From: a virus
Virus record (IMG/VR): IMGVR_UViG_3300037170_000172
Location: 1 to 31,889 of that record
Length of the DNA stretch: 31,889 nucleotides
Reading direction: 5' to 3' (one strand)
The position numbers and the translations under genes were made by a program. Shown one piece after another: positions 14,865-31,889 of this stretch (the stretch's first letter is position 1; each line of letters begins with the position of its first letter). The notes under the pieces were generated by a model that was not told the origin of the DNA, ran no database searches, and saw nothing but the letters and a program-made list of their open reading frames with translations.

Positions 14865-15159
14865 TGGTCACCTCCGCCGCAACCGTGAATGGGACGCCTG
14901 CAAGCTTTGCGGTCTCCGCGTCCGCCGACAGCAACGTGCCGGCCTTGAGCTCCTGGAGATACTCCGCGCGGAACGGCACCTCCGAGTGCGTATCATGCGG
15001 TACCCACGCACCGGACGGCTGTTTCGTCTTGGGGTCCACGTGGCCCAGTGACGGGTCCCGGCGTCGGTTCACGTAACGCAACACGCCGTCTTCCTGCGCC
15101 TCGTAGTCGGGCACCAACGCGGTCCCCGCTGCGCGGACGCGCAACACTTGTTTTGTCAT
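14857..15159 (-). CDS. DUF2635-like protein (Mu gp38 position)
   Basis: This 100-aa protein starts at ATG 15159, immediately after the preceding stop. A longer upstream frame exists but lacks support. The sequence TKQVLRVRAAGTALVPDYEAQ, then GAWVPHDTHSEVPFRAEYLQELKAGTLL, has the DUF2635 layout: a short basic strand, a 'G.wVP' turn, and a C-terminal E(Y/W)..L..G.L. It sits directly before the sheath gene, where Mu has gp38. The function is structural but undefined in the family. It is longer than typical (about 60 aa), so this is a diverged member at best. Confidence 0.6.
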   Translation of the reverse strand: MTKQVLRVRAAGTALVPDYEAQEDGVLRYVNRRRDPSLGHVDPKTKQPSGAWVPHDTHSEVPFRAEYLQELKAGTLLSADAETAKLAGVPFTVAAEVTNG

Positions 15160-15160
15160 G

Positions 15161-16388: not shown

Positions 16389-16845
16389 CGGTCTCCCCAG
16401 TCTTCCGAACGGTGAACCAGTACCCGAAGTTCTCGGCCAAATACCGCGCGATTTCTTTGTGCCAGTCGCCGCTTGGTGACGTTCCGGGCCCCGTGATGAG
16501 GAACGTGATCTCGGCCGGAGTCGCGCCAGGCGTCGGGTCCAGGATCGTCGGGTCGAAGCCGCCGCCAGCGAAGACCGGGGTCAGGGGCCCGATGCGGAGG
16601 TCCCTGTCCTCATAGAGGCCGCCGGAGGCGAGGATCTGGCGCTGCGTCACCTGCCGCACCTTGGGGTTGCCGCCCCCCTCGAGGATGGGGGTGTCGACGT
16701 AGGTCTTGCCGCCGCCGACCATCGGAATCGCGGAGGTCCAGGAGGTGACGCGTACCGTAACCGTGAACGGCCGAAGGCCAGCATCCGAGACGAGCCCGCG
16801 CCACTTGGAGAGCAGCGGCCTGTAGAGGGCCACGAGGTTACTCAC
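16381..16845 (-). CDS. head-tail connector/neck protein, unknown family
   Basis: This 154-aa protein starts GTG at 16845 inside a GTGA overlap with the preceding stop. I prefer this start to a 120-nt longer frame with Arg-rich, out-of-frame-like composition. The sequence contains LVALYRPLLSKWRGLVSDAGLRPFTVTVRV, VGGGKTYVDTPILEGGG, and a C-terminal amphipathic DWHKEIARYLAENFGYWFTVRK. It belongs to the connector block between capsid and tail. No catalytic motif is recognised and no named family is assigned. Confidence 0.55.
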   Translation of the reverse strand: MSNLVALYRPLLSKWRGLVSDAGLRPFTVTVRVTSWTSAIPMVGGGKTYVDTPILEGGGNPKVRQVTQRQILASGGLYEDRDLRIGPLTPVFAGGGFDPTILDPTPGATPAEITFLITGPGTSPSGDWHKEIARYLAENFGYWFTVRKTGETGV

Positions 16846-17246
16846 CCGAGCCCCGCGAGTGTGGAACGTTGGCCCTTCGCCCAGCCGAAGCCGCCGCTGC
16901 CCCCTCGCCCGTAGACGTCCCCCGCGAGGGGCACCCCGAAGAGCGAGGAGAGGCGCGAGCACCACATGCGGCCATGGTCGCAGAGCTCCTGTTTCTGCTT
17001 GCCCTCAAACAACTCGACGTCTACGCCCGAAAGGGCGTGGACGCCGGCCGATGGGACCGCTGTCCCCATCAACGCGGCGTCAATTTCCGCGAGGTTGCCA
17101 AGGATCGTAACCGTAATGCCGCTGGCATCCGGATCGTTGCCTACCACCTGCATAGTCCCCTCGAGTCGCGGATCCAGAAAGAGCCATACGCTAGGATATC
17201 CGAGGTAGCTGCGAATCTGAGCGAGCTGCGCGGTGGTGAAGGCCAT
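16842..17246 (-). CDS. head closure/connector protein, unknown family
   Basis: This 134-aa protein has ATG 17246, sharing one base with the stop of the preceding gene. The N-terminus (MAFTTAQLAQIRSYLGYPSVWLFLDPRLEGTMQ) shows a short helix followed by hydrophobic strands. The C-terminus is Gly-rich (AGDVYGRGGSGGFGWAKGQ). The segment LCDHGRMWCSRLSSLFGVPLAGDVYG has two Cys eight residues apart. It occupies the position of head-completion proteins between the capsid block and the gp10-like protein. Confidence 0.5.
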   Translation of the reverse strand: MAFTTAQLAQIRSYLGYPSVWLFLDPRLEGTMQVVGNDPDASGITVTILGNLAEIDAALMGTAVPSAGVHALSGVDVELFEGKQKQELCDHGRMWCSRLSSLFGVPLAGDVYGRGGSGGFGWAKGQRSTLAGLG

Positions 17247-17812
17247 CAGGGAGCGCCAACCTGCAACGCCTGATGCACGAAGGCTAATGCTACGTGTGCG
17301 TTTATCGCCGTCTGAAGCGCGTTCAGAAGCGTGTCGCTCGTGCCCTGGTCCACCGCCGCCGCCGCCGATACGGTGTTCACTGTGTCGGCTATTGGGTGGC
17401 TTCCGCTACCCGTCGCCCCAGTCGAGGCACAATGTGCGTTCCAGCCGGTTTTGATGGCGTTCGCCATCGCTTCAACATCGGCGAGAACGACACACGGATA
17501 GGTCAGGCCGCTAGAGAGAGCGTTCGTTGCGTCGGCCGCAACGTGTGCCCCCTGCCCGCTCTTCGGGCCCCTATAGGTCTGGTCGCACGAGGAGGCAACA
17601 TGCGCAACGTAGGTCACGTAGAGGCTGTTCGCGAGGGTCACGGAGGTGGGCAGGCTCGAGGCTGCCGGCGTGGAGTTCGCGGCAGCAGGCACCGCGTCCG
17701 CGTGAAGGATCTTCCCAGCGTGCATCTTGAGCAGGTCCGCGCGGATCAGCTGCAAGGTGTAGACGGATTCTGCCGCTTTAAGCGTCAGGACGTCACGAAC
17801 AACGTTCGCCAT
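17246..17812 (-). CDS. capsid-proximal structural protein, unknown, His/Ala rich
   Basis: This 188-aa protein starts at an ATG three nt downstream of the major capsid stop. The composition is Ala-rich with regularly placed His (KMHAGKILHADA, YVTYVAHVASSCDQ, GAHVAADATNALSS, GWNAHCASTG, AINAHVALAFVHQAL). The motif (H/N)AH(V/C)A(A/S) recurs roughly every 25-30 residues, interspersed with helices such as VEAMANAIKTGWNAH. Such patterns occur in proteins next to phage capsid genes that may be head decoration or connector components. I do not recognise a named family. Confidence 0.55.
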   Translation of the reverse strand: MANVVRDVLTLKAAESVYTLQLIRADLLKMHAGKILHADAVPAAANSTPAASSLPTSVTLANSLYVTYVAHVASSCDQTYRGPKSGQGAHVAADATNALSSGLTYPCVVLADVEAMANAIKTGWNAHCASTGATGSGSHPIADTVNTVSAAAAVDQGTSDTLLNALQTAINAHVALAFVHQALQVGAP

Positions 17813-17815
17813 CTG

Positions 17816-18985
17816 TCAACCCGTTTGCGTGATGTTGATGCGCTTACCGAATGCATTCGGGCGCGTGATGGCTATCTGTGGATACGTCTTGAGCATGGCC
17901 TTGAAAGAATCACCCGTGATGGCGAGAAGTTGGAGCACCAACGAGAACGGGATCTCGTTGTACCCATCGAAGAGGGACGACGTAGCCATCGCCTCGTCGT
18001 CGGTGGGGAACATGTCGAGAGAGGCGACACCCTCGAGTGCCTCCATCTTCCAATATTTGGTGTTGATATAGTAGATGGTCCCGGCCGGGCACCACGGGTC
18101 CGCCACGAAGTAGGTGCCATCAAAATGCACGCGGCCAACCCCCGCATCGAGCTGAATCGTGGTAATGCCACCTCCAGCAGTCGGGCCCGAGTTAACCGGC
18201 ACGCCCACGACGCGGTTCGTCGTCGGTTCCGTGCTCATCATGTAGAACATCTGAGGGTCGAAGAGCGAGCGAAGCCAGTTGAATGTGTTCAGCCCAACGA
18301 TCGCAAGGTCCGGCTTCTCGCCGCACGCCAAGGCGATCTGCGCCTGGTCATACCGGATTGCGGACTGCGTGAGCGACTGCTTCGCAGTACCGTCCGTGTC
18401 CGCACCTGCGCCAGGGTTAGTACTCGCGTCGTACAGATACGGTGACCAGAAATCGTTCCCGCTCGTCGACGGGACGCCACCCGAAAGAGGAGGATTCCCA
18501 GAGCGCACGATCCCAGCGTAGGTGTTGCTCTGCGACCCGATCGCGGAGTCGAGGCCAGTCAACGCGTTACTTCCGATGCCCGCTCCGGTGAAGATGTCCG
18601 CGCCAAGCATCTTGGCGAGCACCTCCGTTGCGCTGACGTACTGCTCAGCCCAAAGTTGGATGTTAGACAGCGGGGAACGGCTGCGCTTCGCCACCGCAAT
18701 TGCACTACCAGACACGTGGTAGTTGGAGCGGTAGCGGGCCCACGGGATCGTTGCCGGAATCTGCGAGTCCGACCCGAAGTTGGCGACGTCCGCGCCTTCT
18801 GCGAAGGTCTCTGCGATCGCTCCGGAGGACGACGCCACCCACGCGATATTCGGGCCTTCGCCAGGGAAAAACGTGGGGGCCATCAGCGCCAGGGTGGGCG
18901 CGATACGGTTGATCTGTCGAACGACGTCGCCGCGGTAGTTCTGCGCGACGGTAATGAGACTCTGCGTCAGCAGTGTGTCTGCCAT
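17816..18985 (-). CDS. major capsid protein
   Basis: This 389-aa protein has an ATG preceded by GAAGG at suitable spacing. The sequence includes QNYRGDVVRQINRIAPTLALMAPTFFPGEGP at the N-terminus and WARYRSNYHVSGSAIAVAKRS in the first third. RVHFDGTYFVADPWCPAGTIYYINTKYWKMEALEGV lies in the C-terminal domain, where HK97-fold capsids often show a WC-P-G--Y-IN- strand region. It follows the scaffold-like gene and precedes the connector block. No prohead protease gene is visible, and the N-terminus lacks an obvious long delta-domain. Assembly may therefore rely on the separate scaffold. Confidence 0.8.
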   Translation of the reverse strand: MADTLLTQSLITVAQNYRGDVVRQINRIAPTLALMAPTFFPGEGPNIAWVASSSGAIAETFAEGADVANFGSDSQIPATIPWARYRSNYHVSGSAIAVAKRSRSPLSNIQLWAEQYVSATEVLAKMLGADIFTGAGIGSNALTGLDSAIGSQSNTYAGIVRSGNPPLSGGVPSTSGNDFWSPYLYDASTNPGAGADTDGTAKQSLTQSAIRYDQAQIALACGEKPDLAIVGLNTFNWLRSLFDPQMFYMMSTEPTTNRVVGVPVNSGPTAGGGITTIQLDAGVGRVHFDGTYFVADPWCPAGTIYYINTKYWKMEALEGVASLDMFPTDDEAMATSSLFDGYNEIPFSLVLQLLAITGDSFKAMLKTYPQIAITRPNAFGKRINITQTG

Positions 18986-19025
18986 GTTGGCCTTCGTGTG
19001 CTGACGCGGAGGTCAGCCGTTGGTG

Positions 19026-19667
19026 TCAGGGTTTGGAGTGTTGAAGCGCCTGGATGTCGCGGTAGGTCTTTTCCGCAAGCTCGATCTTGCTCATCTGCGA
19101 TACCGGCTTCTCGCCACCCTCGGGACCAGCGACCGGAGATCGCGTAGCCGGTCGGCTGCGCTGCGAAGCGGAGGGAGGCGGCAGAAAAACCTTTGCGTGC
19201 TCGGTCTTCGCCCACGCGGCGACGCCTTCCGCGAGCCCGTGCGGCACCTGCTCGTGACTGAAGGTGACGCTACCGTCCTCATGCGCGGTGACCACCTTGT
19301 TCACGTGGAAGAGATGATCCGTCGCCAGGTCCACCAGCTCCGGTTTCACGTGAGCCAAAAGGCTCTTCTTCAGCGCGTCGCGTGCGGCAGTATCGCGCGC
19401 CTTCTGGCGTCCTTCGGCAAGGTCCGTAAGCAGCTTGTTGTGCGAGGCCTGGAGAGCAGCGAAGCGCTTCTCGGGGTCCTTCTCGTCGGCTGCTGCCGCA
19501 GGCGCAGGAGCCGCAAGCTTGGAGAGGTGCGGAGCGAGGGCACCCTCGAGCGCCTTCGGGAGCGCGCGGCCGAGATGTGCGGCGATGGCCGCGTTCATTG
19601 CATCGGCTTGCGCCTGCGTGAACAGATCTGCGGCGGGAGCTGCGGGAACAATCGGATCGGGGGGCAT
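19026..19667 (-). CDS. putative scaffolding protein
   Basis: This 213-aa protein has an ATG with GAGGA about six nt upstream. It is highly helical and Ala/Lys/Glu/Asp rich. The coiled-coil segment is DEKDPEKRFAALQASHNKLLTDLAEGRQKARDTAARDALKKSLLAHVKPELVD, and the C-terminus is charged (MSKIELAEKTYRDIQALQHSKP). The proline/alanine-rich N-terminus (PPDPIVPAAPAADLF) is also typical of scaffolds. The location between portal and major capsid is the classic one for scaffolds. The shape is similar to 'minor structural GP20' proteins. No serine-protease motif is seen. Confidence 0.65.
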   Translation of the reverse strand: MPPDPIVPAAPAADLFTQAQADAMNAAIAAHLGRALPKALEGALAPHLSKLAAPAPAAAADEKDPEKRFAALQASHNKLLTDLAEGRQKARDTAARDALKKSLLAHVKPELVDLATDHLFHVNKVVTAHEDGSVTFSHEQVPHGLAEGVAAWAKTEHAKVFLPPPSASQRSRPATRSPVAGPEGGEKPVSQMSKIELAEKTYRDIQALQHSKP

Positions 19668-19715
19668 GGGCGTCCTCTCGTCCGCCTGCCTAGCGGACGT
19701 GATGTGCAGCAGCGG

Positions 19716-21221
19716 TCAGGCTGCCGTGGGTTGGGTTTTCTGGTCAGCGCCGGGTTGAGCCGGCGAAGTCTGGGGTGGGGAACCTGGCGGAGGCGCTACG
19801 ACTGGCGCGGGCTTGGGCTTCTTCGAAGCCTCGAGCAGCTCTTCGCGGATCTTGTCCTTCGTCTGCTGCGACACGTCTGGCAGCAGCAGCTCCGCGACTT
19901 TGTACTCGAGCTCTGCGTTCAGTGTCGGACTGTCAATTCGGAGGTCGTGCGCGACCTTGCAGTTGTGCACCTCGCCCGTGCGGTTGTCGAGGTTGAACTG
20001 ACTCATGCCCTCGACGCTAAACTTGAGCCTCACGTCGCCGCGAGCGTCGCTCACCAATTCGAAAGTATCCTCCGCGGCACCCTTCACGACGTCGGCGTAG
20101 GCCACTAGGCACACTTCGGTCGCCGCCATGTCCGCCGCCTTGGAGTCGCCGCTACGGTCAAGAGCTGCCGCGGAGGTGTTCATGGCCGCGGCCATCTGTT
20201 GGCAGACGCGGTAGATTTCGGTGCGCTGCTGGTCGATTTCCTTTTGTAGGACCTCGAACGAGTCGGAGGGGGGCGAGACCCAATCAAATTTCTCGTCCTT
20301 CCCGATCGTGGTGACCAGCCCCGGTCCCGTTTTGGGTGCCGTCCCATCCTCGGAGTTGAAAACTCCAAGGGGGTAGCAGGTTCGCCGGATCGCCCACGAA
20401 AGCGCTGCCGACAGCCGGAAGTGCTCGATCTGGGCATCGCTTGCTCGGTCCAGGAGCCACAGTCCCTCGGGCAGCCGCATCTCGACCAGCGGCACACGGA
20501 GGAATCCGTGAGGGCGGCGCCCTTGGCTCGGGATGACGTCGTGCTCCTGAAGCCTGCGGCGCTTGGCGTCGTAGGTGATTTCGAACGTCTCGACGTCCGT
20601 CGTGTCGTAGAGCTTCCACGTCTCCGTCGTGAGGACGCGTTTCTCGCGCGGGTTGTCGCGTCGCACCTTCTTGGTGTGCGTAATGGCCCACTGCCGCACG
20701 CCGGCCTCGTCGACCTCCCAGTCTAGGACGTCGTCGGGCTCCACGGGCAGGATGCGGGCTCGGCCGAGGTTGCGCGTCTCCCACTCGAGCCGGTTGGCCG
20801 GGGGCTTCTCTCCGTCGTCGGGAAGCTCGGCCACCCACCACGCCGAGCGCTTCACCAAAGCTGTCAGGAAGCGCGCCTTGAGGAACCCGGCTAGGTCGGT
20901 GCCTGTGGTGTCCACGTCCTCGCGAAACGACGCATAGAACGCGTCCGGTGCTTCTGTTTCGCCGTCGGTCCCCGAGCGAATCGAGAAGGGCGCACCGAAG
21001 AGCTCCGCGCCGAAGAAATCGCAGATCGGCCCGACGTAGGACCGATAGCCGGCCGTCTTCAACCGCATCGCGTAGACGTCGGAGGCCTCGAGCGGGTTCT
21101 GCTCGAGGAACTCTCTCACTCGCCCGCGAAACGTCTGGCCTCCACGATAGAGTGCATCGTAACGCGCGAAGAGCTCGGGAGTGCACTCCGGGTGCCGTTG
21201 GTTGAGGGTGCCGTATTCCAC
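19716..21221 (-). CDS. portal protein
   Basis: This 501-aa protein takes GTG 21221 as the first usable start. The frame is open further upstream to a TAG at 21291-21293 but has no canonical start there. It has a portal-like N-terminus (LFARYDALYRGGQTFRGRVREFLEQNPLEASDVYAMRLKTAGYRSYVGPICDFFGAELFG), a DVLDWEVD core, then WLLDRASDAQIEHFRLSAALSWAIRRTCYP. The wing/stem helices include QRTEIYRVCQQMAAAMN and ADVVKGAAEDTFELVSDARGD. The C-terminus is Pro/Gln rich. It sits between large terminase and scaffold. The dodecameric ring is the DNA entry channel. Confidence 0.8.
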   Translation of the reverse strand: MEYGTLNQRHPECTPELFARYDALYRGGQTFRGRVREFLEQNPLEASDVYAMRLKTAGYRSYVGPICDFFGAELFGAPFSIRSGTDGETEAPDAFYASFREDVDTTGTDLAGFLKARFLTALVKRSAWWVAELPDDGEKPPANRLEWETRNLGRARILPVEPDDVLDWEVDEAGVRQWAITHTKKVRRDNPREKRVLTTETWKLYDTTDVETFEITYDAKRRRLQEHDVIPSQGRRPHGFLRVPLVEMRLPEGLWLLDRASDAQIEHFRLSAALSWAIRRTCYPLGVFNSEDGTAPKTGPGLVTTIGKDEKFDWVSPPSDSFEVLQKEIDQQRTEIYRVCQQMAAAMNTSAAALDRSGDSKAADMAATEVCLVAYADVVKGAAEDTFELVSDARGDVRLKFSVEGMSQFNLDNRTGEVHNCKVAHDLRIDSPTLNAELEYKVAELLLPDVSQQTKDKIREELLEASKKPKPAPVVAPPPGSPPQTSPAQPGADQKTQPTAA

Positions 21222-21347
21222 GCGGTAGAGGGGAGGAGGAACCGAAGCAGAAGCGTGGCGCCAGGGGTGGGGGACGCCCTTCGTTTCCTCCTACTACCTA
21301 CGCCGATGCCTCGTGGGGCTAGACGGGGTCAACTGGGGGATAAACTT
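21222..21347. other. intergenic segment terminase-portal, with orphan SD
   Basis: This is a 126-nt gap. On the minus strand it contains TAGGAGGA at 21286-21293, a near-perfect ribosome-binding sequence, but no ATG, GTG or TTG follows at a suitable distance. The frame of the portal gene is open from the TAG inside this SD to the GTG at 21221. No hairpin or promoter is evident to me. Confidence 0.5.
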
Positions 21348-22742
21348 TCAGACCATCCCAGGCATGCGGAAATTACCGCGTGGAACCGGCTTCTTTTTAT
21401 CATCGTTGAGACCTGCCAAATGCGTCGCGCCGTGCACAAGGGCGTCAATTCGGTCGTCCTGGCGTGGCTTCTTCGGGCCCAATGGATTCCACTTTCGCAT
21501 CTGCGCCTCGAGCTCGGGCAACCGCGGAACGTGATGCAGCCGCCCCTCCACGTACAGCGTGCGCACTGGCAAGGCGCGCAAGGTCTTCCCGTTCATCGCA
21601 CAGACTCCAACGATGGGCGGGAGAGCACCGAGTCCCTGCTGCCCGTTCGCTGCGCGGTCGCGATAGTAGCTCGCGGTAAGGTTCGCCTTGACCTGCGCTA
21701 GACCGCGGTTCGTCTCGGCGACGAAGCAGTCAGCCTGCCACCCCGCTGCCAGCGATATCGCGCGGTCCCCCCAAATCTCCGGGTCAACGCAGCCTGACTG
21801 ATCCTCGAGCACGTAGACATGTCCCGCGTTGTCGCGCGCCATTACCAGGATGCCGGCCTCGTCGCTCGTGGGGCGAGCCCCTTCGGATGGGTCGACCACG
21901 ACGACCACCTCTTCGAAGGTGCTTCGGTCGACAAGTCCAACGCGAATCGGTGGCGCGTCAAACTTCAGCCCGTGGAACGGGGAGCGATCGTCTTTGTTGA
22001 GCCGACCTCCCGCCCAGTCTGGTATAAGCTCGTCCATCCCCTCTAGCGCCACCTTCTTGTCGAGCATGGCCAGCGTGAGGTTTTCTAGGTTGTCCTCCGC
22101 CGTGCTGTGCGTGCGGACAGTTGCGATCTTGGTATCCTCCATTAGCCACACGAGGATGTCCAAGTCCTCGTCTGGGTTGTAGGTCACGACCATGCGGCCG
22201 TCGCCCTCGCGAAGTCCAAGGTATGCCTGCATGAAGGTCAGCCGTGCGCGCGTCCTGGACCAGATGCTCAGGTCGTCGCACCAGCAAGTCTGAATCCCTT
22301 TCCCGCGGACCCTGCTCCCCGCCTCGGAACCGAACGCCAGGCCCAGCACCCCGTTAGGCCACGTGAGCAATCCGCCGTCCCCAATTGACGGTTCCCACTT
22401 CGGAACGAAGCCAGGCCGAGCCGTCGCGAGGATTCCGCTCGGCCCCTCGACCATGACGACGCGCACGTCCCCCGCTGTGCCGGCGATGAGCACAATGGGG
22501 CCCTTGCCCTCCTCTGCGCGGTCGTTGATCCACTTCGCAGCGGGGTGAGTCTTCCCGCCGCCACGCCCGCCGCCGAGCTGCCAAACCTCCCACCAGCCAA
22601 GGGGGACGCGCTGGTCCTCGCGTTCCCAAACCTCGTGGTACGCCTCTCGTTTGGCAAGCGCCGCAATCTGCCGAGCGGTCAGGCCGTCGAAGAGCGATTC
22701 AAATCCTTCCGCCTCGAGCCGCAAGGCCCTCGAGAGATGCAC
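21348..22742 (-). CDS. terL: terminase large subunit
   Basis: This 464-aa protein starts GTG immediately after the small-subunit stop. ATPase domain: Walker A GGGRGGGKT at residues 57-65; Walker B region TCWCDDLS at 152-158 (hydrophobic residues few, D156-D157 where DE is usual); and a YNP coupling segment (VVTYNPDED). Nuclease domain: VVVVDPSEG, FVAETN and QDDRIDALVHG, giving the three acidic clusters of an RNase H-like fold. The short N-terminus preceding Walker A and overall length fit HK97/lambda-type to SPP1-type terminases. It drives DNA into the procapsid and cuts it. Confidence 0.85.
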   Translation of the reverse strand: MHLSRALRLEAEGFESLFDGLTARQIAALAKREAYHEVWEREDQRVPLGWWEVWQLGGGRGGGKTHPAAKWINDRAEEGKGPIVLIAGTAGDVRVVMVEGPSGILATARPGFVPKWEPSIGDGGLLTWPNGVLGLAFGSEAGSRVRGKGIQTCWCDDLSIWSRTRARLTFMQAYLGLREGDGRMVVTYNPDEDLDILVWLMEDTKIATVRTHSTAEDNLENLTLAMLDKKVALEGMDELIPDWAGGRLNKDDRSPFHGLKFDAPPIRVGLVDRSTFEEVVVVVDPSEGARPTSDEAGILVMARDNAGHVYVLEDQSGCVDPEIWGDRAISLAAGWQADCFVAETNRGLAQVKANLTASYYRDRAANGQQGLGALPPIVGVCAMNGKTLRALPVRTLYVEGRLHHVPRLPELEAQMRKWNPLGPKKPRQDDRIDALVHGATHLAGLNDDKKKPVPRGNFRMPGMV

Positions 22743-24874: not shown

Positions 24875-26335
24875 TCAACGCCCGTCGCGCTGAATCGCCC
24901 GTCGCTCCTCGTCCTCGTACGACGGCGTAATCCCCGTCGCGGCCATGGCGCGCTCCGCGTCTCCCGAGGCCGGCCACACACCGAACATTTCGCGATACCT
25001 CATCGTCACCCAGCCCGGTTTGAAGCCCTTTGCAGCGGCCACACGCGCCATTTTCCCAAGGTACGCCTCGCGCGTTGCCGGCGTGGAGCGCGCCCCAAAT
25101 TCGAGCATCCGGCGCGGCGTAATCGCGACCTCCACGGGTGCCGCCACTCGCTCTCGACACGCTGGGCAGCAGCGGTAGCCCGCAGAGTCGGTGCGCCACA
25201 AGCCAATCATAGCGCCGCACGCCGGGCAGGGCTTCAGCGCGATGTCTCGCTCTCGCTCTGCAAGACCGATCGCTCGACCGGTGAGCGACCACGAGCGATC
25301 CGCTTCGGGTAGGCCAATTCGCACGCCTGCAACCTCGCGATGGATCGCGCCGCAAAGGTCCCAAAACGTCGCGTGCGTCTTGCCTGGGGCCGCGCGCAGC
25401 ACGCGCCCGACCATCTGCAGGAGCATCCCCGCGTGACCGCACGAACGCGCGAGAATGCAACACGACGCTTCGGGCACGTCCACGCCCTCCGTCAGCGTGT
25501 ACACGTTGCAAAGAACAAGGGGGGCGCTCTCTCTCGTGCCGATCTCGCGCAGCGGATCGTTGCTCTGCTGCTGAAACGCTGCGAGCCGCGCCTCGCGCAG
25601 CGACCACGGAGTGTTCGCGTGAATGGTCGCCGCGTGGATCCCCTGGCCGTTGAACGCCAGCGATACCGTTTCTGCGTGGCTCACGTTTTGACAAAACACG
25701 AAGGCTCGCTCGCCGGCGCTGTGCAGCTGATACGCGACAACAGGGTCGTGCGATAGGTTCTTCGTTGTGGTGTCGGGAGCGAACGTACGGCACGGCACGA
25801 GCACGCCGAGAGCCTGAAGCTCGCGCACGCTCGACACGGGAATCAGCGTTTCGAACAGGTCGCCGAGCGCGGCCCCATCGCCGCGCTCGGGAGTCGCGGT
25901 GAGTCCGAGCTTCACCGCGGGCCCGTAGTGCTCGGCAATCTCGCGCCACGTCGCCGCCGCGTAGTGGTGCGCCTCGTCGAAAACCACGACGGTTGCGGGC
26001 GGCAGACCCTTCTTTGCGCGAGCCACCATGGTTTGTATGCTCGCCACATGGACCGGCGCAGTAGAGCAGCCCGAGCCCGCGTTGATGATGCCCACGTCGG
26101 GGATGCCCTCGCGGTGTAGCCGCGCCTTGGCCTGCTGCAGCAGCTCTTCTCTGTGCGCGAGCCAAAGCACCTTGCCACCTCGGGCCACTGCGGTAAGCAC
26201 GAAGGTGACGCCGATCTTGGTCTTCCCCGCGCCCGTGGGGGCCACGAGCAGGATCGACCGGTGCCCGGCCCGGTACGCCTCGCGCGCAGCCGTCACCGCC
26301 TTCTCTTGGTGCGCCCAAAGCCTCTCCCCGCTCAC
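24875..26335 (-). CDS. SF2 DEAH-box helicase with C-terminal zinc ribbon
   Basis: This 486-aa protein starts GTG in a GTGA overlap with the DnaB-N-like gene. Superfamily 2 motifs are: APTGAGKT (Walker A, K38), DEAH at 120-123, TATPERGD at about 146-153, then FCQNVSHAETV (motif IV region), CNVYTLTEGVDVPEA and LLQMVGRVLRAAPGKT (motif VI). A C-terminal zinc-ribbon-like CPACGA...YRCCPACRER precedes a tail (FKPGWVTMRYREMFGVWP). The family includes helicases from phage replication modules. It probably translocates on or unwinds DNA during replication or recombination. No nuclease domain is visible. Confidence 0.85.
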   Translation of the reverse strand: MSGERLWAHQEKAVTAAREAYRAGHRSILLVAPTGAGKTKIGVTFVLTAVARGGKVLWLAHREELLQQAKARLHREGIPDVGIINAGSGCSTAPVHVASIQTMVARAKKGLPPATVVVFDEAHHYAAATWREIAEHYGPAVKLGLTATPERGDGAALGDLFETLIPVSSVRELQALGVLVPCRTFAPDTTTKNLSHDPVVAYQLHSAGERAFVFCQNVSHAETVSLAFNGQGIHAATIHANTPWSLREARLAAFQQQSNDPLREIGTRESAPLVLCNVYTLTEGVDVPEASCCILARSCGHAGMLLQMVGRVLRAAPGKTHATFWDLCGAIHREVAGVRIGLPEADRSWSLTGRAIGLAERERDIALKPCPACGAMIGLWRTDSAGYRCCPACRERVAAPVEVAITPRRMLEFGARSTPATREAYLGKMARVAAAKGFKPGWVTMRYREMFGVWPASGDAERAMAATGITPSYEDEERRAIQRDGR

Positions 26336-26829
26336 GAGGCCACCGCCGCGAGCTCGCGATCGTGGTACACGCCCCGCAGCGCCTGTGCGGCGTCAGTCGC
26401 CCACCACGCGAAGTCGCGCAGCATACGCGCCCGCCCCCGTTCTGCGTCGTCGCGCTCGGCGGCACCCCGTCGCACCTCGGCCACCGCCGCAACCGCCTGG
26501 CGGCGCCCTGGCGCAGCCGCGGCGAGCTCGCGTAGGTAGCCGGCCACGAGCAGGCCACGGAGCGAGCAGACGGCCATGCACGCGCCCAGGGGCAGCCCGG
26601 CGACGCTGCGCTGGCCCGAGGGCCACAGATCACGGCGCGAGCCGACCACGAGCAGGGCCTCGTGCACGTCGCCGTGCACCTGATAGTGGTAGTCGCTCGG
26701 GTCGAGCGCGGCGACGTCGCGACTTCGCAACGTGCCTCGGATCAGGGCCCCTAGGACCGCCCGTTCAGCGGGCAGGTATTCGACGCGCACAGGCGGAAAC
26801 AGCATCCCAAGGTCGAGGGTAGGTCGCAT
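26332..26829 (-). CDS. DnaB N-terminal-domain protein lacking the helicase domain
   Basis: This 165-aa protein has ATG 26829; a TTG at 26832 also precedes it. Residues about 15-60 (VEYLPAERAVLGALIRGTLRSRDVAALDPSDYHYQVHGDVHEALL) match the DnaB/DciA-linked N-terminal helicase domain pattern: AE.aVLGaLi, l...dF/Y, H..i..a. The remainder is Arg/Ala-rich helix (ELAAAAPGRRQAVAAVAEVRRGAAERDDAERGRARM). No RecA-like ATPase follows. Its stop overlaps the SF2 helicase start. It may recruit primase or helicase. The domain call is moderately certain; the function is inference. Confidence 0.6.
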   Translation of the reverse strand: MRPTLDLGMLFPPVRVEYLPAERAVLGALIRGTLRSRDVAALDPSDYHYQVHGDVHEALLVVGSRRDLWPSGQRSVAGLPLGACMAVCSLRGLLVAGYLRELAAAAPGRRQAVAAVAEVRRGAAERDDAERGRARMLRDFAWWATDAAQALRGVYHDRELAAVAS

Positions 26830-26838
26830 CAATGGCGA

Positions 26839-26881
26839 AAGCCCCGGGCCTTGCGGCTGCGGGGCTTTGTGCTGCCGTAGG
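26839..26881 (-). terminator. 43-nt hairpin element, copy 1 (minus orientation)
   Basis: This segment is an exact inverted copy of 31182-31224. In the direction of transcription it reads CCTACGGCAGCACAAAGCCC then a stem AAGCCCCG...CGGGGCTT with a GC-rich loop. It lies between the coiled-coil gene and the DnaB-N-like gene. There is no U-tract, so terminator, attenuator and RNA-processing site are all possible. Confidence 0.6.
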
Positions 26882-26884
26882 AGC

Positions 26885-27313
26885 TCAGTTTTTGGACTTG
26901 TCGGGGGCCTTGTCGTCCACCGCCGTGAGCTTCCCCTTCTTGGCGGGGAACATGGACACCTGTTGGCAGTCCTCGATCTCGGCCTTGGTGGCAGCTCGCG
27001 AGCTCACCTCCTCGAGCGTGTCCTGCCGCACCGTGTAGATCGTGTGGTCGCGATAGACCTCCCGGCACTCGACCTGCCTCGGCTCGCGGCGGCTCTTCAC
27101 CGCCAGGGCGAGCTCGTACGCCCTTGCGGTGATCGCGTCCTCCTCAGTCTCGAGCTTCTTGGTCCTGGTCTTGGCCTCCTCCTTGTGGGTCTCCAGTTCG
27201 AGCTTCTTGGCCTGAATCCGCGTCACCACGCCCGCGGCTTCCTTTGCTCGCTCGTGCACCTCGTCGTCGCTTAGAGGCACCGGCAGCAGTTCCAAAAACG
27301 CTTCTCGTCGCAT
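26885..27313 (-). CDS. coiled-coil protein, unknown function
   Basis: This 142-aa protein has an ATG with an AGAGGA ribosome-binding sequence at good spacing, so the start is well supported even though it lies inside the RusA frame. Residues 17-75 form a long charged coiled coil (DEVHERAKEAAGVVTRIQAKKLELETHKEEAKTRTKKLETEEDAI). A C-terminal region has EVYRDHTIYTVRQDTLEEVSSRAATKAEIE and a basic tail. No enzymatic motif is seen. It is a common type of small early phage protein and may bind a host partner. Confidence 0.65.
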   Translation of the reverse strand: MRREAFLELLPVPLSDDEVHERAKEAAGVVTRIQAKKLELETHKEEAKTRTKKLETEEDAITARAYELALAVKSRREPRQVECREVYRDHTIYTVRQDTLEEVSSRAATKAEIEDCQQVSMFPAKKGKLTAVDDKAPDKSKN

Positions 27314-27698
27314 CCTTGTTGTCCTCTCGGTTCGTTAACTCGACCTGTACAAAGTACTTAATCAGCTCAGGCGCATCCTTGCGCCGACTCTGCGGCACGG
27401 GCTTGTCCTGCCAGTAATCCCACGTGATCCCCGGGTCCCGGTCGTGGGTCCCCAGGTAGTCCGCAACGGCGTCCCGGCAGCCCTTCAGGGCCCCACGTAG
27501 ATTGTCGTCGTCCAGTGCCCTTGGGGCGATTCGGGTGAGCCGTACGACCACAGGGAGAGACGGCGGGTGAGAGCCGAAGTGCACGCGGCACAGCAGCAGG
27601 ATGGCCGCCCGCTGGGACGCAGTGCGGCCCGCCTTGACCGCCCAGTGTTCGCGCAGGTTGGGCTCGCTGACCGTGTGGATGGGCGCAATGGCCCTCAC
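27144..27698 (-). CDS. rusA: RusA-like Holliday junction resolvase with overlapping C-terminal extension
   Basis: GTG 27698 is chosen because it forms a GTGA overlap with the preceding stop, giving 184 aa. The features are IHTVSEPNLREHWAVKAGRT (N-terminal strand) and TRIAPRALDDDNLRGALKGCRDAVADYLG (residues about 55-83), with the D-x-DN acidic cluster and a second D. THDRDPGITWDYWQDKP completes the RusA fold. The family resolves Holliday junctions produced by replication or recombination. Homologues normally end near residue 130. Here the last 56 residues are read from the same DNA as the coiled-coil gene and are Arg/Gly rich, suggesting a lost stop. Confidence 0.75.
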   Translation of the reverse strand: MRAIAPIHTVSEPNLREHWAVKAGRTASQRAAILLLCRVHFGSHPPSLPVVVRLTRIAPRALDDDNLRGALKGCRDAVADYLGTHDRDPGITWDYWQDKPVPQSRRKDAPELIKYFVQVELTNREDNKDATRSVFGTAAGASKRRRGARASKGSRGRGDADSGQEARTGDPQGGGQDQDQEARD

Positions 27699-27973
27699 AG
27701 GCCGTCCCGGCTTTCGCCGCTGTCGGTGATAAACTCCGTCGCCCGCCATGGCGTACGCTGCACCCACTGCTCGCACCCCATGGGGCACCTGGCGTCGTTC
27801 AGCCGCCGCCTGCCCTGCCCCTCGGTCATGCGAGCGGCGGCGTCGAGGCACACCTCGTAGCGCCCGCAATTCTCGTCCCGGGCCCCGTGCACATCGCTCG
27901 CGATCATGTAGCCGACAAGGGGCAGCCGCACGACTCGCCGGCCAGGATCGCTGCGATGCCAGCCGCGCCTCAC
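27695..27973 (-). CDS. small Cys4 zinc-finger-like protein
   Basis: This 92-aa protein starts GTG at 27973 in a GTGA overlap with the coiled-coil gene, and ends in another GTGA with rusA. Four cysteines at residues 36, 42, 63 and 67 (NCGRYEVCLD..., ARCPMGCEQW) have CX5C-X20-CX3C spacing. They flank a helix AAARMTEGQGRRR, resembling small phage zinc-binding proteins with C..Y..CL..AAR...C..C. Nucleic-acid binding is inferred from the fold type. The DAAARMTEGQGRR stretch is shared with a small gene upstream. Confidence 0.6.
   Translation of the reverse strand: MRRGWHRSDPGRRVVRLPLVGYMIASDVHGARDENCGRYEVCLDAAARMTEGQGRRRLNDARCPMGCEQWVQRTPWRATEFITDSGESRDGL
27805..27845. repeat. 41-bp direct repeat, copy 1
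   Basis: Identical to 28482-28522 and in the same orientation, about 677 bp apart. It encodes DAAARMTEGQGRR on the minus strand inside the Cys4 gene. Confidence 0.9.
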
Positions 27974-28419
27974 GAGGCCCTCACCGGTCGCCGAGCAAGC
28001 TCCTCTTTGTACGCGTCGCGCTCGGCCCTGAGCCGCGCCGCGAGCCTCGACAGCTCGAGGTTTCGCGCGCACGCGTCACGCACCTCCACGCGCTGCTGAT
28101 TCGCGATGCTGCGGCACTCGTAGCGCTCGTTCTGCGCCGCCAGGAGCTCACCCGCGAGCCGGTCGCACTCACGGTCTGCCGCGTCTCGCTCACGCCTTGC
28201 GATGTCACGCTCGCGGGTGAGCTCTTCCAGGTCGCGCACGCGCTCACCTTCTTCGGCGACCGGCGAGTAGGGGATGGGTGTGTCTGCCTCAGGTGGCTCA
28301 TCAAGGAGCTCGTCACGAACCGCCTGCACCAAATCGAGCAGCCCCCGCTCGAGCGACGGATCCCTGCGCCCCCGCATCGCCCACGACACCGCCGCTACGC
28401 ACCGTTCCAATCGACTCAT
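27970..28419 (-). CDS. coiled-coil protein, unknown function
   Basis: This 149-aa protein has an ATG preceded by GAGGTG. The first 45 residues are a helical domain (LERCVAAVSWAMRGRRDPSLERGLLDLVQAVRDELLDEPP). Residues 55-145 are a continuous Arg/Glu/Ala coiled coil (EEGERVRDLEELTRERDIARRERDAADRECDRLAGELLAAQNERYECRS...). No other motif is seen. It stands early in the leftward operon, coupled by GTGA to the Cys4 protein gene. It may scaffold an early complex, but nothing in the sequence specifies a role. Confidence 0.6.
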   Translation of the reverse strand: MSRLERCVAAVSWAMRGRRDPSLERGLLDLVQAVRDELLDEPPEADTPIPYSPVAEEGERVRDLEELTRERDIARRERDAADRECDRLAGELLAAQNERYECRSIANQQRVEVRDACARNLELSRLAARLRAERDAYKEELARRPVRAS

Positions 28420-28428
28420 ATGGCACCT

Positions 28429-28599
28429 CTACCGCCACAACCTCCGGCCCTGGGGGTGCGGAGGCGTGGCGTGGCTCGAGGGCCGCCTGCCCTGCCCCTC
28501 GGTCATGCGAGCGGCGGCGTCGGTGATGGTGAACGCGTAGCCCTCACGGTCGCCCGAGCCTCTTTGTTTTTGCCGGCATCGCTGCCACTTTCGCTGCAT
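28429..28599 (-). CDS. small protein sharing DAAARMTEGQGRR with the Cys4 gene
   Basis: This 56-aa frame starts at an ATG at 28599 inside the repressor gene and ends TAG at 28429. It begins MQRKWQRCRQKQRGSGDREG and contains YAFTITDAAARMTEGQGRR. Codons from residue 15 onward show strong G/C third-position bias, supporting translation. The ribosome-binding site is poor, and the start could be elsewhere or the frame could be a decaying fragment. It overlaps the 3' end of the repressor gene. The 13-residue motif is also read in the same frame in the Cys4 gene. Confidence 0.4.
   Translation of the reverse strand: MQRKWQRCRQKQRGSGDREGYAFTITDAAARMTEGQGRRPSSHATPPHPQGRRLWR
28482..28522. repeat. 41-bp direct repeat, copy 2
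   Basis: Identical to 27805-27845. It lies in the small overlapping gene and is read in the same frame (DAAARMTEGQGRR). Confidence 0.9.
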
Positions 28600-28864
28600 G
28601 AGCAAAGCGCGCCTTCGTCACCGCCCTATGCACACTCAACGTCGCAGGGCTACGGCCAGTACCGTTCGTCAGGTACTCAGCCGAGACGCCGAAAACGCTA
28701 GCGATAGCAATCGTGGTCGAAGCTCGGAGCTTGCTTTTGGTCCCTCTTACGACCTGACCGCAGTGCCCGGGCGAGAGCCCGGCCAACCCGTCGAGCTCTT
28801 CGAGCCCGAGCCCGGCCACGTCGATGAGACAGGCCAACCTGGCACAAATTGTTTCGATGCCCAC
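28544..28864 (-). CDS. XRE-family phage repressor, leaderless start
   Basis: This 106-aa protein takes GTG 28864 as start because the minus-strand promoter at 28873-28902 would start RNA at about 28866. An ATG at 28927 lies in the promoter itself. The helix-turn-helix is GLGLEELDGLAGLSPGHCGQVVRGTKSKLRASTTIAIASVFGVSAEYLTNG (about residues 18-68), the XRE fold with 'a..fgvs.eyL..G' at its end. A basic C-terminus (AKVAAMPAKTKRLGRP) follows. There is no S24 peptidase domain, so RecA-type autocleavage is not expected. It probably binds the operators at 28884-28952. Confidence 0.75.
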   Translation of the reverse strand: MGIETICARLACLIDVAGLGLEELDGLAGLSPGHCGQVVRGTKSKLRASTTIAIASVFGVSAEYLTNGTGRSPATLSVHRAVTKARFAHAAKVAAMPAKTKRLGRP

Positions 28865-28872
28865 GACGAACG

Positions 28873-28902
28873 AATATACAGCGACTAACGTTCGTACGTC
28901 AA
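28873..28902 (-). promoter_or_regulatory. repressor promoter (minus strand)
   Basis: -35 TTGACG at 28897-28902, an 18-nt spacer, and -10 TATATT at 28873-28878. It is predicted to start RNA close to the repressor's GTG at 28864. Operator O3 lies inside the spacer. Confidence 0.6.
28884..28895. promoter_or_regulatory. operator O3 (one mismatch)
   Basis: ACTAACGTTCGT, matching the consensus ACGAANNTTCGT in 9 of 10 defined positions. It lies between the -10 and -35 of the minus promoter. Confidence 0.5.
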
Positions 28903-28916
28903 CCGAAAAAAATCTA

Positions 28917-28945
28917 TTGACGAACATTCGTTCGTCGCGTACGAA
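28917..28945 (+). promoter_or_regulatory. rightward early promoter
   Basis: -35 TTGACG at 28917-28922, a 17-nt spacer, and a weak -10 TACGAA at 28940-28945. It directs RNA starting near 28952, just before the ATG at 28954. Both hexamers are overlapped by operators. Confidence 0.45.
28920..28931. promoter_or_regulatory. operator O2
   Basis: ACGAACATTCGT, the exact reverse complement of O1 and overlapping the -35 of the rightward promoter. Confidence 0.6.
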
Positions 28946-28952
28946 TGTTCGT
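28941..28952. promoter_or_regulatory. operator O1
   Basis: ACGAATGTTCGT, a perfect dyad with half-sites ACGAA/TTCGT. Its centre is 21 bp from that of O2, about two helical turns. It overlaps the -10 of the rightward promoter. Confidence 0.6.
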
Positions 28953-28953
28953 C

Positions 28954-29187
28954 ATGAGACACTCCCCGCCCGCCGCTACTCCTCCGCGCCCCCGCATCAA
29001 ACTCGGCCTCCGCACCTGGCGCGACGACCTGGCCACGGTCGACGCGAACCAGGCGGTCGCCGCCGCCCTGGCGGAGGCAGGCCGCGCCCTCCAGGCCGCC
29101 GGCGCCACGCGCCGTGCGCACCACGCTCGGGTGACCGAAACCCGCACCTCGCGGGTGCTGGCCGCGGGGGTGTGCAGTGGGAGCTGA
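28954..29187 (+). CDS. first rightward early protein, unknown
   Basis: This 77-aa protein has an ATG at 28954; an ATG nine nt upstream is inside the operator O1 and -10. It has no clear ribosome-binding sequence and may be leaderless. The sequence has a Pro/Ala-rich N-terminus, then LRTWRDDLATVDANQAVAAALAEAGRALQAAGATRRAHHARVTETRTSRVLAAG. It is basic and helical. No HTH motif is clear, so calling it a Cro would be guesswork. It overlaps the ERF gene start by eleven nt. Confidence 0.5.
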   Translation: MRHSPPAATPPRPRIKLGLRTWRDDLATVDANQAVAAALAEAGRALQAAGATRRAHHARVTETRTSRVLAAGVCSGS

Positions 29188-29920
29188 CCTGCTGCTACCG
29201 CTGGTCGACGCCGTGGCACCTGCCACGCGGTTCCGTTCGTCTACCCAGGTCGGGGATCTAGCCGCAGCTCTTGCAAAGGCGCAGGGCTCGTTTGAGGCGG
29301 TCGGCAAAGACCGCGAAAACCCGCACATGCGGTACCGCTACGCGACGCTCGCGAGCGTGCTGGCCGCCACCCGCAAGGGGCTGTCGCAGAACGGGATCGC
29401 TGTCACCCACGAGTACAACGACGGCTACCTCGTGACTCGGCTTCTCTGCGGCGAGCAGTGGCTTGAGAGCGAGGCTCGCGTTGCTCTAGACCAGGGCAAG
29501 GGCCTGACCCAGGTGCAGGCGCTTGGGTCTGCGCTGACATACCTCCGCAGGTATTGCCTGTCCGGCCTCCTTGGGGTGGCGCCTGACGACGACGACGATG
29601 GCGCAGGGGCCGACGGGGTGGTCGTTGACCAGGGCGCGCCGCCGCGCCACGAGACTCGCCCCGCGCCGCAGCAGGAGCGCCGGGAGCCCGCTCGCGCCGC
29701 TGTCGCCCCGCAGGCTGCACCTGTTGCCGCTCCGGCGGGGCCACCCGATGAGCGCGTGAAGGACGACGAGACGAGGGCCGTGCTGCTGCTGCGCGAGGCG
29801 CGGTCCGTCGCGGAGCTCGGGCAGGCGGGGAGCGAGGTGCAGAAGCTCACGCTTTCGTCGGAGGCTCGGCAGCGCTGCCTCGAGCTCTACCGCGAGCTGA
29901 AGGCCGCGTTGCAGCGATGA
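29177..29920 (+). CDS. erf: ERF-family single-strand annealing protein
   Basis: This 247-aa protein starts GTG, overlapping the preceding stop. Residues about 30-140 have the ERF core: LAKAQGSFEAVGKDRENPHMRYRYATLASVLAATRKGLSQNGIAVTHEYNDG, then QWLESEARVALDQGKGLTQVQALGSALTYLRRYCLSGLLGVAPDDDDDGA. These match the F...KD..NP...Y.YA.L..v......L...G signature and the G.A.TY..RY.l..llG motif. The rest is a Pro/Ala/Arg-rich linker and a helical C-terminus (EVQKLTLSSEARQRCLELYRELKAALQ). ERF proteins anneal ssDNA in phage recombination and circularisation. It partners with the nuclease encoded next. Confidence 0.9.
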   Translation: MGADLLLPLVDAVAPATRFRSSTQVGDLAAALAKAQGSFEAVGKDRENPHMRYRYATLASVLAATRKGLSQNGIAVTHEYNDGYLVTRLLCGEQWLESEARVALDQGKGLTQVQALGSALTYLRRYCLSGLLGVAPDDDDDGAGADGVVVDQGAPPRHETRPAPQQERREPARAAVAPQAAPVAAPAGPPDERVKDDETRAVLLLREARSVAELGQAGSEVQKLTLSSEARQRCLELYRELKAALQR

Positions 29921-31176
29921 GCACGCGGCTCACAGGCAGCCGCGTGGGGCTGGCCCTGCTCTGCGGCTACGCCTTCCGGCCGGCCGCTGTGATGCACCCC
30001 CAGGCCACCGGGGGCGAGGCCGCGGACCTCGGCACGGCGGAGCACGAGCTAATCGAGGCCGAGGGCGACCCAGAAAAAGCCGCGGAGGATGCCTTCGCTC
30101 AGCTCGTGGCGCGCGACCTGCGCCTCGAGGACGCCATCGCCCGCAACGGGCTGTCCGATGCCGCTGCGGCGGACCTCGTGGCCATGCACGAGGCGTTCAC
30201 CGAATGGTGGCCAGTGTGGTCGGCGGGGCTCATCTACGAGCGCGAGGTGCCGTTCGCGTGGGACGTCGCGAGGTGGTCGGCTCGACGGCTGCCGAGCTCG
30301 GGACAGCGAGACTACAGCGCCGCGGGGGGCACCGAGATACCCCTCACTGTCGACGCCGTTCAGGTCGATACGGTGGCCAGGGTCGGCACGGTCATCGACT
30401 GGAAAACCGGCCGCCTGCCGCAGCCGAGGGCCGCGGAGCACCCGCAGCTACTCACGGCGGCCCTGTGCCTCTCAGAGCTGTACGCCCTCGAACGCGTTCG
30501 GGTGGTCGTGGTGCGCGTGCGACCAGGCTGGGTCTCGGCGGATGAGGCCTGGGTTGACTCGCTCGACCTCCTCGAGCACGGGGGCAACCTGGCGCGGCTC
30601 GCGTTAGAGTTGCATTCGGCGACGCCCAACCCCGGGCGCCACTGCACCGAGTGCCACTGCCCGGCGCTGTCGGCCTGCGAGGGGCCACGGGCACTGGCCG
30701 CTCGAGCGCCGGCGCTTGCCGCCGCACTGCCCGTGGTCGTGGAGACCGAATCGCAGGCCGCCGCCGTGTTGGCTTCGGCGAAGGCGATCCGGGCCTACCT
30801 GGCAGCGCTCGAGGCCGGCGCTGTGACGTGGGCGCAGGCCCACGGGGGCGTGGTGCGGCTTGGGGATCGGGCCTGGTCTAGGGTGACCAAGGCGCGTCGC
30901 ACGATCGATCTAACGCGCGCGGAGACCGCGCTGCGGCTGCGGTTCGGGGCCAAGCTCGACAGCATGATCAGGGTTAAACGCACCCTCTCGATCTCGGAGG
31001 TCGAGAAAGCCGCGGCCTCCACGGCTCCTCGGGGCAAGAGGGGGGAGGCCTCAGGCCAGACCATCGCCGAGCTCGAGGCGACCGGAGGGCTCAGGCTCAG
31101 CGCCTATGAGATATGGGAGGAGGGCGCCACGAGCTCAGCGCCAGCCCCCGAGCCAGTAGGTGCCGTCCCCTTGTGA
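29917..31176 (+). CDS. PD-(D/E)XK nuclease with AddB/Cas4-like iron-sulfur cysteines
   Basis: This 419-aa protein starts ATG in an ATGA overlap with erf. Motifs: acidic D146 (LTVDAVQ), then VIDWKTG with D161 and K163, then HPQLLTAALCL as a QxxxY-like motif IV. Cysteines are C16 at the N-terminus (ALLCGYAF) and C243, C246, C248 and C254 after it (HCTECHCP....AC). This is the N-Cys plus C-terminal Cys cluster of AddB/RecB-like and Cas4 nucleases that hold a 4Fe-4S. A helical C-terminal region follows. It would process DNA ends to supply ssDNA for ERF annealing. Confidence 0.8.
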   Translation: MSTRLTGSRVGLALLCGYAFRPAAVMHPQATGGEAADLGTAEHELIEAEGDPEKAAEDAFAQLVARDLRLEDAIARNGLSDAAAADLVAMHEAFTEWWPVWSAGLIYEREVPFAWDVARWSARRLPSSGQRDYSAAGGTEIPLTVDAVQVDTVARVGTVIDWKTGRLPQPRAAEHPQLLTAALCLSELYALERVRVVVVRVRPGWVSADEAWVDSLDLLEHGGNLARLALELHSATPNPGRHCTECHCPALSACEGPRALAARAPALAAALPVVVETESQAAAVLASAKAIRAYLAALEAGAVTWAQAHGGVVRLGDRAWSRVTKARRTIDLTRAETALRLRFGAKLDSMIRVKRTLSISEVEKAAASTAPRGKRGEASGQTIAELEATGGLRLSAYEIWEEGATSSAPAPEPVGAVPL

Positions 31177-31186
31177 CGGCACCTAC
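31156..31186 (+). terminator. 12-bp stem hairpin at the end of the nuclease gene
   Basis: GTAGGTGCCGTC (31156-31167), a seven-nt loop, then GACGGCACCTAC (31175-31186). The gene's TGA stop (31174-31176) lies at the loop/stem boundary. There is no U-tract. It may be a terminator, attenuator or mRNA end. Confidence 0.55.
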
Positions 31187-31224
31187 GGCAGCACAAAGCC
31201 CCGCAGCCGCAAGGCCCGGGGCTT
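31182..31224 (+). terminator. 43-nt hairpin element, copy 2 (plus orientation)
   Basis: Identical (inverted) to 26839-26881. It has the same stem AAGCCCCG...CGGGGCTT and the same orientation relative to transcription. It lies between the nuclease gene and the octapeptide-repeat gene. Confidence 0.6.
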
Positions 31225-31249
31225 GTGGCGTTGGGGGACAGGAGACGAC

Positions 31250-31889
31250 ATGGCTAAGGTTCTTTGTCTGCGCACGTGCACCTCTAAGATGACTTCGTAC
31301 AACGATTTTCGGTGGCCCGAGAGCGGGCACGTTGAAGCGCCAGACTGGAGCCCGGTGGCGCGCTGCGGGCATGGGCTCCACGGCCTGCTCTGGGGTGAGG
31401 GCGACGGGTCGCTGCTCAACTACGACGTCGACTCGAAATGGCTCGTGGTGCAGGTTGACGATGATGCGATCGTGGACCTGAAGGGAAAGGTGAAGTTCCC
31501 TGGATGCGATGTCGTTTTCTGCGGAGACCAGGGCGGCGCCACCTCGTACCTAGCCGCGCACGGCTGCGCCCACATGTCGATCGTGGGCGCGACGGTCGTC
31601 GGCGGCCACGGCGCGACGGTCACCGCAGGCGACAGGGCGACGGTCACCGCCGGCCACAGCGCGACGGTCGTCGCCGGCGACAGGGCGAAGGTAACCGCCG
31701 GCGACTACGCGACGGCCATCGGCGGCTACGGCGCGACGGTCGTCGCCGGCGACATGGCGACGGTCACCGCCTGCGACAGGGCGACGGTAACCGCCTGCGA
31801 CTACGCGAAGGTAACCGCCGGCGACTACGCGACGGTCATCGCCGGCCACAGCGCGACGGTCACAGGCGGCGACTACGCGAAGGTAACCG
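31250..31889 (+). CDS. DUF7666-like protein with octapeptide repeats (C-terminus beyond window)
   Basis: ATG 31250 follows an AGGAG at good spacing; the frame is open to the window end (213 codons). The N-terminal globular part (about residues 1-105) contains RTCTSKMTSYNDFRWPESG, VEAPDW and CGHGLHGLLWGEGDG, followed by NYDVDSKWLVVQVDDDAIVDLKGKVKFPGC, a pattern I recognise in phage proteins with a DUF7666-type N-terminus. From residue 114 an octapeptide repeat runs to the edge: AT(V)(T/V)AGD(R/Y), AKVTAGDY and variants. Such repeats could form a right-handed beta-solenoid. The function of the family is unknown to me. Confidence 0.7.
   Translation, partial: MAKVLCLRTCTSKMTSYNDFRWPESGHVEAPDWSPVARCGHGLHGLLWGEGDGSLLNYDVDSKWLVVQVDDDAIVDLKGKVKFPGCDVVFCGDQGGATSYLAAHGCAHMSIVGATVVGGHGATVTAGDRATVTAGHSATVVAGDRAKVTAGDYATAIGGYGATVVAGDMATVTACDRATVTACDYAKVTAGDYATVIAGHSATVTGGDYAKVT
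31589..31889. repeat. 24-bp tandem repeat (octapeptide), at least 12 units
   Basis: In frame with the gene above, units such as GCGACGGTCACCGCCGGCGA recur every 24 nt to the window edge with mainly minor substitutions. Variable positions alternate between D and H/Y at unit position 7 and R, Y, S, M or G at position 8. Confidence 0.9.

Follow-up and report, generated by a model that had tools for sequence, protein, structure and literature searches.

The right third of a phage genome fragment carries the same 43-nt hairpin-forming sequence twice, once in each of two divergent operons, which raises the question of how the two copies arose and what they may do for the genes that surround them.

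Genomic setting

The window, i.e. the whole stretch analysed, corresponds to an entire IMG/VR virus record (31,889 bases, 64.8% G+C), whose minus strand carries myovirus-type genes for tail sheath, baseplate, portal and terminase. Both ends of the record lie inside tandem-repeat genes, which identifies it as a fragment. At the left contig end, 117-nt tandem repeats (1-448) form part of a tail-fibre-like repeat protein on the minus strand, and a 57-nt tandem repeat of six copies, near-identical in the middle, is found inside the tail gene region (10121-10537).

The right third is organized around a divergent control region near 28.9 kb. The leftward (minus) arm comprises a repressor-like gene, small genes, a 142-aa gene, a DnaB-N-like gene and a helicase, and the rightward (plus) arm a small gene, an ERF protein, a PD-(D/E)XK exonuclease and a DUF7666 repeat protein. 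We regard both operons as putatively early from their gene content (repressor-like HTH, ERF, PD-(D/E)XK exonuclease, helicase). The relevant features are:

24875..26335, minus strand: ResIII/DEAD-type helicase (PF04851, 2e-26; phrog_16, 4e-73), overlapping the gene before it by 4 nt, in the same operon
26332..26829, minus strand: gene directly downstream of the left copy, with weak similarity to the DnaB N-terminal domain (PF00772, E = 0.012, below the curated cut-off)
26839..26881, sense strand minus: left copy of the 43-nt element, identical to the reverse complement of the right copy; fold predicted
26885..27313, minus strand: 142-aa gene directly upstream of the left copy (open reading frame; no match in family searches)
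28544..28927, minus strand: repressor-like HTH, first gene of the left operon (phrog_2328, 2.4e-5; HTH_3, 0.0013)
28885..28955, no strand assigned: divergent control region with operator-like inverted repeats TGACGAACATTCGTTCGTCGCGTACGAATGTTCGTCA and one sigma-70-like site (repeat and promoter scans)
29177..29920, plus strand: ERF-type single-strand annealing protein of the right operon (PF04404, 8e-19)
29917..31176, plus strand: PD-(D/E)XK exonuclease directly upstream of the right copy (PF12705, 5.4e-10; phrog_69, 2.6e-18)
31182..31224, plus strand: right copy of the 43-nt element, same sequence as the left copy in its own transcript sense; fold predicted
31250..31889, plus strand: DUF7666 protein with 24-nt (beta-roll-like) repeats, downstream of the right copy (PF24703, 1.5e-8; phrog_18079, 1.3e-44), with its own AGGAG ribosome-binding site and running off the contig

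The operator-like repeats at 28885-28955, between the divergent operons, read TGACGAACATTCGTTCGTC...GACGAACATTCGTACG.

Duplication of the element

The earlier note had described the two copies as perfect inverted copies with the same orientation relative to each transcript, and both statements are correct: all 43 nt of 26839-26881 match the reverse complement of 31182-31224, and both copies read CCTACGGCAGCACAAAGCCCCGCAGCCGCAAGGCCCGGGGCTT in transcript sense, being oriented alike relative to their own operons. The match can be extended to 55 nt at 91% identity (26830-26884 / 31179-31233), and the 43-nt pair is the longest exact inverted repeat of the window. In eight simulated windows (first-order Markov) the longest exact repeats reached 15-16 nt, about a third of the length of the real one. 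There is no third copy in the window, where the next best local match spans 13 nt. The duplication of the element is not due to chance. Recent copying, one of the two origins considered in the earlier note, is likely, and copying inside the phage genome, or identity kept by recombination, is the most likely origin as judged from the sequences.

The left operon contains a second exact repeat, a direct one of 41 nt (27805-27845 / 28482-28522), which indicates that other short duplications happened there. This direct repeat extends to 56 nt at 89% identity, twice includes the start ATGACCGAGGGGCAGGGCAGGCGG of a small reading frame, and looks like a partial gene duplication.

Placement between genes

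Both copies are located in short gaps between putative early genes, as had been claimed; the gaps are non-coding and comprise 55 nt (26830-26884) and 73 nt (31177-31249). On the left, the copy begins 3 nt and its stem 16 nt past the TGA of the 142-aa gene, and another 9 nt lead from the stem to the next start codon (26829). On the right, the corresponding distances from the exonuclease TGA are 5 nt for the copy and 18-19 nt for its stem, with 25 nt between the stem and the next start (31250). Neither gap has room for a conventional promoter between the hairpin and the next gene, so that full termination would silence the latter unless a promoter was available further upstream. The promoter scan found no promoter-like site at either copy, and the copies are 2046 nt (left) and 2237 nt (right) away from the promoter-proximal start codons of the divergent region.

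The junction on the right has one further structure:

31156..31186, plus strand: perfect 12-bp hairpin GTAGGTGCCGTC-N7-GACGGCACCTAC (fold and repeat analysis)

It spans the exonuclease stop codon, overlaps the first 5 nt of the right copy and has no counterpart at the left copy. A frame of 243 codons runs through the right copy into DUF7666, but we do not consider it coding, since the left copy would fall in a different frame and since 31250 is preceded by a good ribosome-binding site.

Predicted fold and terminator features

The element consists of a 13-14 nt leader CCTACGGCAGCACA followed by a hairpin AAGCCCCG-CA-GCC-GCAA-GGC-C-CGGGGCTT, predicted to fold into an 8-bp GC-rich stem (AAGCCCCG/CGGGGCTT), a 2x1 internal loop and a 3-bp stem with a GCAA loop. 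The fold energy of the element is -19.6 kcal/mol, with z = -2.0 against shuffled sequences, hence the hairpin is not unusually stable for its own composition. A search of the window against Rfam gave no match at the gathering threshold.

Two features of intrinsic terminators, a GC-rich stem-loop (the 8-bp stem, at the energy given above) and a site just downstream of a gene end, are found in both copies. The sequence after the stem is TTTCGCC on the left and TTGTGGC on the right, i.e. a T-tract of 2-3 nt in the sense direction. The corresponding tail scores, 2.55 (left) and 2.24 (right), fall at the 24th and 18th percentile of 91 similar hairpins among the matches listed (see below). Both are above random 15-mers of the window (95th percentile 1.70); random 15-mers with a fixed TT start have a median of 1.95 and a 95th percentile of 3.09, so the tails of the copies are not exceptional. 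A terminator scan of the window listed neither copy, one reason being that its loop limit of 8 is too low for this structure.

In their GC-rich stem, preceding A-tract and, less clearly, following T-tract, as well as in their position inside an operon just downstream of a stop codon, the copies resemble intrinsic terminators or attenuators of the lambda tR2 type. They differ from them in the shortness of the sense-direction T-tract and in the presence of an identical leader and stem in two operons. Conservation between the copies includes the 13-14 nt before the stem and ends with the stem, leaving the 3' tail variable, a combination not accounted for if the element were a terminator in its sense direction only. 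The edges of identity may be just the borders of the copied piece; alternatively, the leader may matter, or termination in the opposite direction may have been kept (tail TTTGTGCTG, score 2.98).

The hairpin core in other viruses and genomes

A scan of IMG/VR identified the core CACAAAGCCCCG-N4-28-CGGGGCTT in at least 112 viral stretches. Among the matches listed there are 92 distinct examples, in which the loops vary freely, the downstream bases are mostly T and upstream conservation is limited to a few A-rich bases. On a rough map of open reading frames, the matches listed lie between convergent gene ends (23), between divergent starts (7), in tandem arrangements on either strand (23) or inside crude ORF calls (30). 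The bias towards convergent ends, the variable loops and the T-rich tails together identify the pattern as that of intrinsic terminators, and by these sequence features the core is a widespread, generic hairpin of the intrinsic-terminator type.

The complete 43-mer was not found elsewhere: a leader-plus-stem scan of IMG/VR gave nine other contigs, none of which contains it, and blastn searches of plasmids and phages gave partial matches of low significance only. Several of the nine contigs had unrelated loops or showed the sequence in other contexts, and they were set aside. In 85,462 genomes, 17 hairpins led by GGCAGCAC were detected, spread across Actinomycetota, Bacillota, Paracoccus and Chloroflexota, a scatter that makes the leader no taxon signature and gives no host. 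A match of 28/30 nt in Pseudomonas phage EM was rejected: it is a gene-end hairpin of an ordinary kind, its leader differs, and the two places reported for it probably represent both strands of one palindrome.

Related phages

Two relatives, L168 and L169, have the helicase (about 36% identity) and the DUF7666 protein (62-65%) in common with the window, in the same divergent arrangement. L168 also encodes a PD-(D/E)XK protein and a CI-type repressor, and its gene content differs from that of the window. DUF7666 domains followed by 24-nt (8-residue) repeats are found in both the window and L168, the latter with two such genes (5986-6717 and 10922-11632). Neither L168 nor L169 contains the AAAGCCCC hairpin or any duplicated gene-end hairpin, and the 43-nt element is likewise absent from ERF relatives and from more distant ones. 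Searches with the terminase identified a single near-identical relative, the L146 fragment (99.96%), which covers 14497-22519 and hence not the element; no relatives were found via the terminase in bacterial genomes, the DnaB-N-like protein or the exonuclease. The earlier note had named absence from related phages as one part of what would speak against its reading, and this part holds for the relatives found, although their shared proteins are only about 36-65% identical to those of the window. As far as the collections searched show, it appears to be specific to this lineage.

L168 has a different and very strong intercistronic hairpin in its rightward operon (9246-9324; -61.9 kcal/mol for the stretch, z -5.9), which starts about 15 nt past a stop codon and runs into the ribosome-binding site of the next gene. 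Such hairpins may thus serve these phages without conservation of sequence. This observation bears on an unlikely alternative, in which the element would be an intercistronic hairpin for mRNA processing or stability that blocks 3'-to-5' exonucleases or offers an endonuclease site, so that the upstream and downstream parts of the transcript would have different half-lives; the left copy may, in addition, mask the site at which ribosomes bind to the following gene. Along with the example of L168, the presence in both gaps of a GC-rich stem closed by a GNRA-type loop agrees with such a role, as does the left start codon 9 nt past the stem with no Shine-Dalgarno sequence visible outside it. However, the core fits a family of terminator-type hairpins flanked by A/T tracts, a good AGGAG stays free at the right copy, so that masking of the ribosome-binding site is not common to both copies, and two identical copies provide no support by covariation.

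Pairs of inverted repeats, each of a different sequence, are present in L168 (5094-5128/5606-5640), L169 (5265-5297/5613-5645) and L142, a relative by its helicase (2876-2922/4207-4253). The inverted hairpin repeat of L142, considered as a possible counterpart of our element, was rejected for its different sequence and its operator-like position near a repressor-like region, and the pairs of all three relatives, placed around repressor-type genes, are likely operators. By analogy, the stem arms of the element, which form an inverted repeat in DNA, might constitute a protein-binding palindrome or operator rather than an RNA structure. We consider this highly improbable, since the repeats of the relatives surround repressor genes and promoters whereas the two copies of the element follow stop codons, and since operator-like repeats of another sequence are present in the window itself, at 28885-28955.

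Possible recombination between the copies

Identical intergenic pieces behind stop codons could provide homology for the shuffling of genes in a variable early region. The exact identity of copies that abut stop codons, the 41-nt direct repeat in the same region, the ERF annealing protein and exonuclease encoded by the phage and a gene content that differs from that of L168 are all consistent with such a recombination cassette. We nevertheless find it distinctly unlikely, as there are two copies only, none is present in L168, L169 or other relatives, no shuffled junction occurs in any of the nine virus contigs from the leader-plus-stem scan, and a recognisable adjacent early promoter is absent. 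The nearest known case is that of the promoter-early stem-loop (PeSL) cassettes of T4-type phages, where gene shuffling reportedly proceeds via repeated intergenic stem-loops, as Arbiol et al. are said to have described in 2010. They share with our element a repeated intergenic stem-loop past stop codons and a variable early region. In contrast to the PeSL arrangement of a stem-loop plus early promoter between genes, the window has 9 and 25 nt between stem and next start, and instead of many copies at different junctions in related phages there are two copies, inverted, in this phage.

The perfect inverted copies might also bound an invertible segment of 4.3 kb, whose flipping would exchange the downstream genes of the two operons, leaving operon polarity intact, and which includes the gene for the ERF annealing protein. 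This is extremely improbable: L168 agrees with the window in the strand and side of its exonuclease and DUF7666 genes, the alternative junctions occur in no contig of the scan, 43 nt is short, and no invertase was found.

Among other repeats, the palindromes of Cluster O mycobacteriophages and REP-type repeats resemble the element as short inverted repeats recurring in intergenic DNA. Cluster O phages have about 34 copies of a 17-bp palindrome (PMC4351075), in contrast to two copies of an asymmetric 43-nt element here. The parts of our pair are ordinary; its arrangement alone is notable.

Comparison with antitermination sites

The occurrence of one similar RNA element per divergent early arm, in the same sense and at similar distances (2046 and 2237 nt), is reminiscent of lambda nutL/nutR and HK022 putL/putR, and the earlier note had accordingly suggested an antitermination site through which one trans-acting factor would control both arms. 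The conservation of the leader rather than the tail is in agreement with a recognition site of this kind. However, nut and put sites are promoter-proximal, whereas about 2.0 and 2.2 kb separate the copies from the first start codons of their arms, a promoter-distal position. No boxA-like stretch (CGCTCTTTA-like) was seen by eye in or just upstream of either copy, and the family searches of the window recognised no candidate antiterminator gene. The core is a generic terminator stem of many unrelated phages, and the element is absent from the relatives found. Nut-type antitermination is not supported by these observations and is very unlikely.

Possible attenuation in the two arms

The reading that we tentatively prefer, with slightly less than even confidence, is that the element serves as an attenuator inside each operon, a terminator of weak or conditional effect that lies near a stop codon and was duplicated in the genome. 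The duplicated hairpin, its placement and spacings and the commonness of its core are seen directly, and from them we infer termination, its partial strength, ribosome gating and origin by copying. Of the suggestions made before, attenuation or a tL/tR-like terminator agrees with the terminator-type core and the position of the copies and less well with their mediocre tails.

In each putative early operon, the hairpin would attenuate transcription between the upstream gene and the downstream gene, which has no room for a conventional promoter in front of it. With a ribosome close behind the polymerase, folding of the hairpin would be blocked and read-through would follow; with lagging translation, the hairpin would fold and terminate transcription. 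The expected outcome is lowered or translation-dependent expression of the helicase genes in one arm and of the DUF7666 gene in the other. Gating by the ribosome is to be expected because the stem begins just 16 nt (left) or 18-19 nt (right) past the stop codon. In E. coli, ribosomes repress lambda tR2 near a stop codon; distances above about 27-30 nt are needed for full efficiency, and values of about 0.12 to 0.8, depending on the sequence, were obtained at 17-18 nt (PMC4824070). Both copies lie inside this suppressed range, which favours a weak, translation-sensitive attenuator, under rules of termination that are taken from E. coli and may not be those of the phage host.

If the copies act as conditional terminators, the same signal would limit both early arms at the same relative point, a simple means of balancing two operons. 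In a more elaborate variant, to which we give a slim chance, they would be matched, promoter-distal, translation-gated attenuators, or sites of one factor, with the leader as the recognition part, setting the read-through of both arms together. The pair also offers a clean case of a terminator-type hairpin probably copied within a phage genome, which bears on how the regulatory signals of phages spread.
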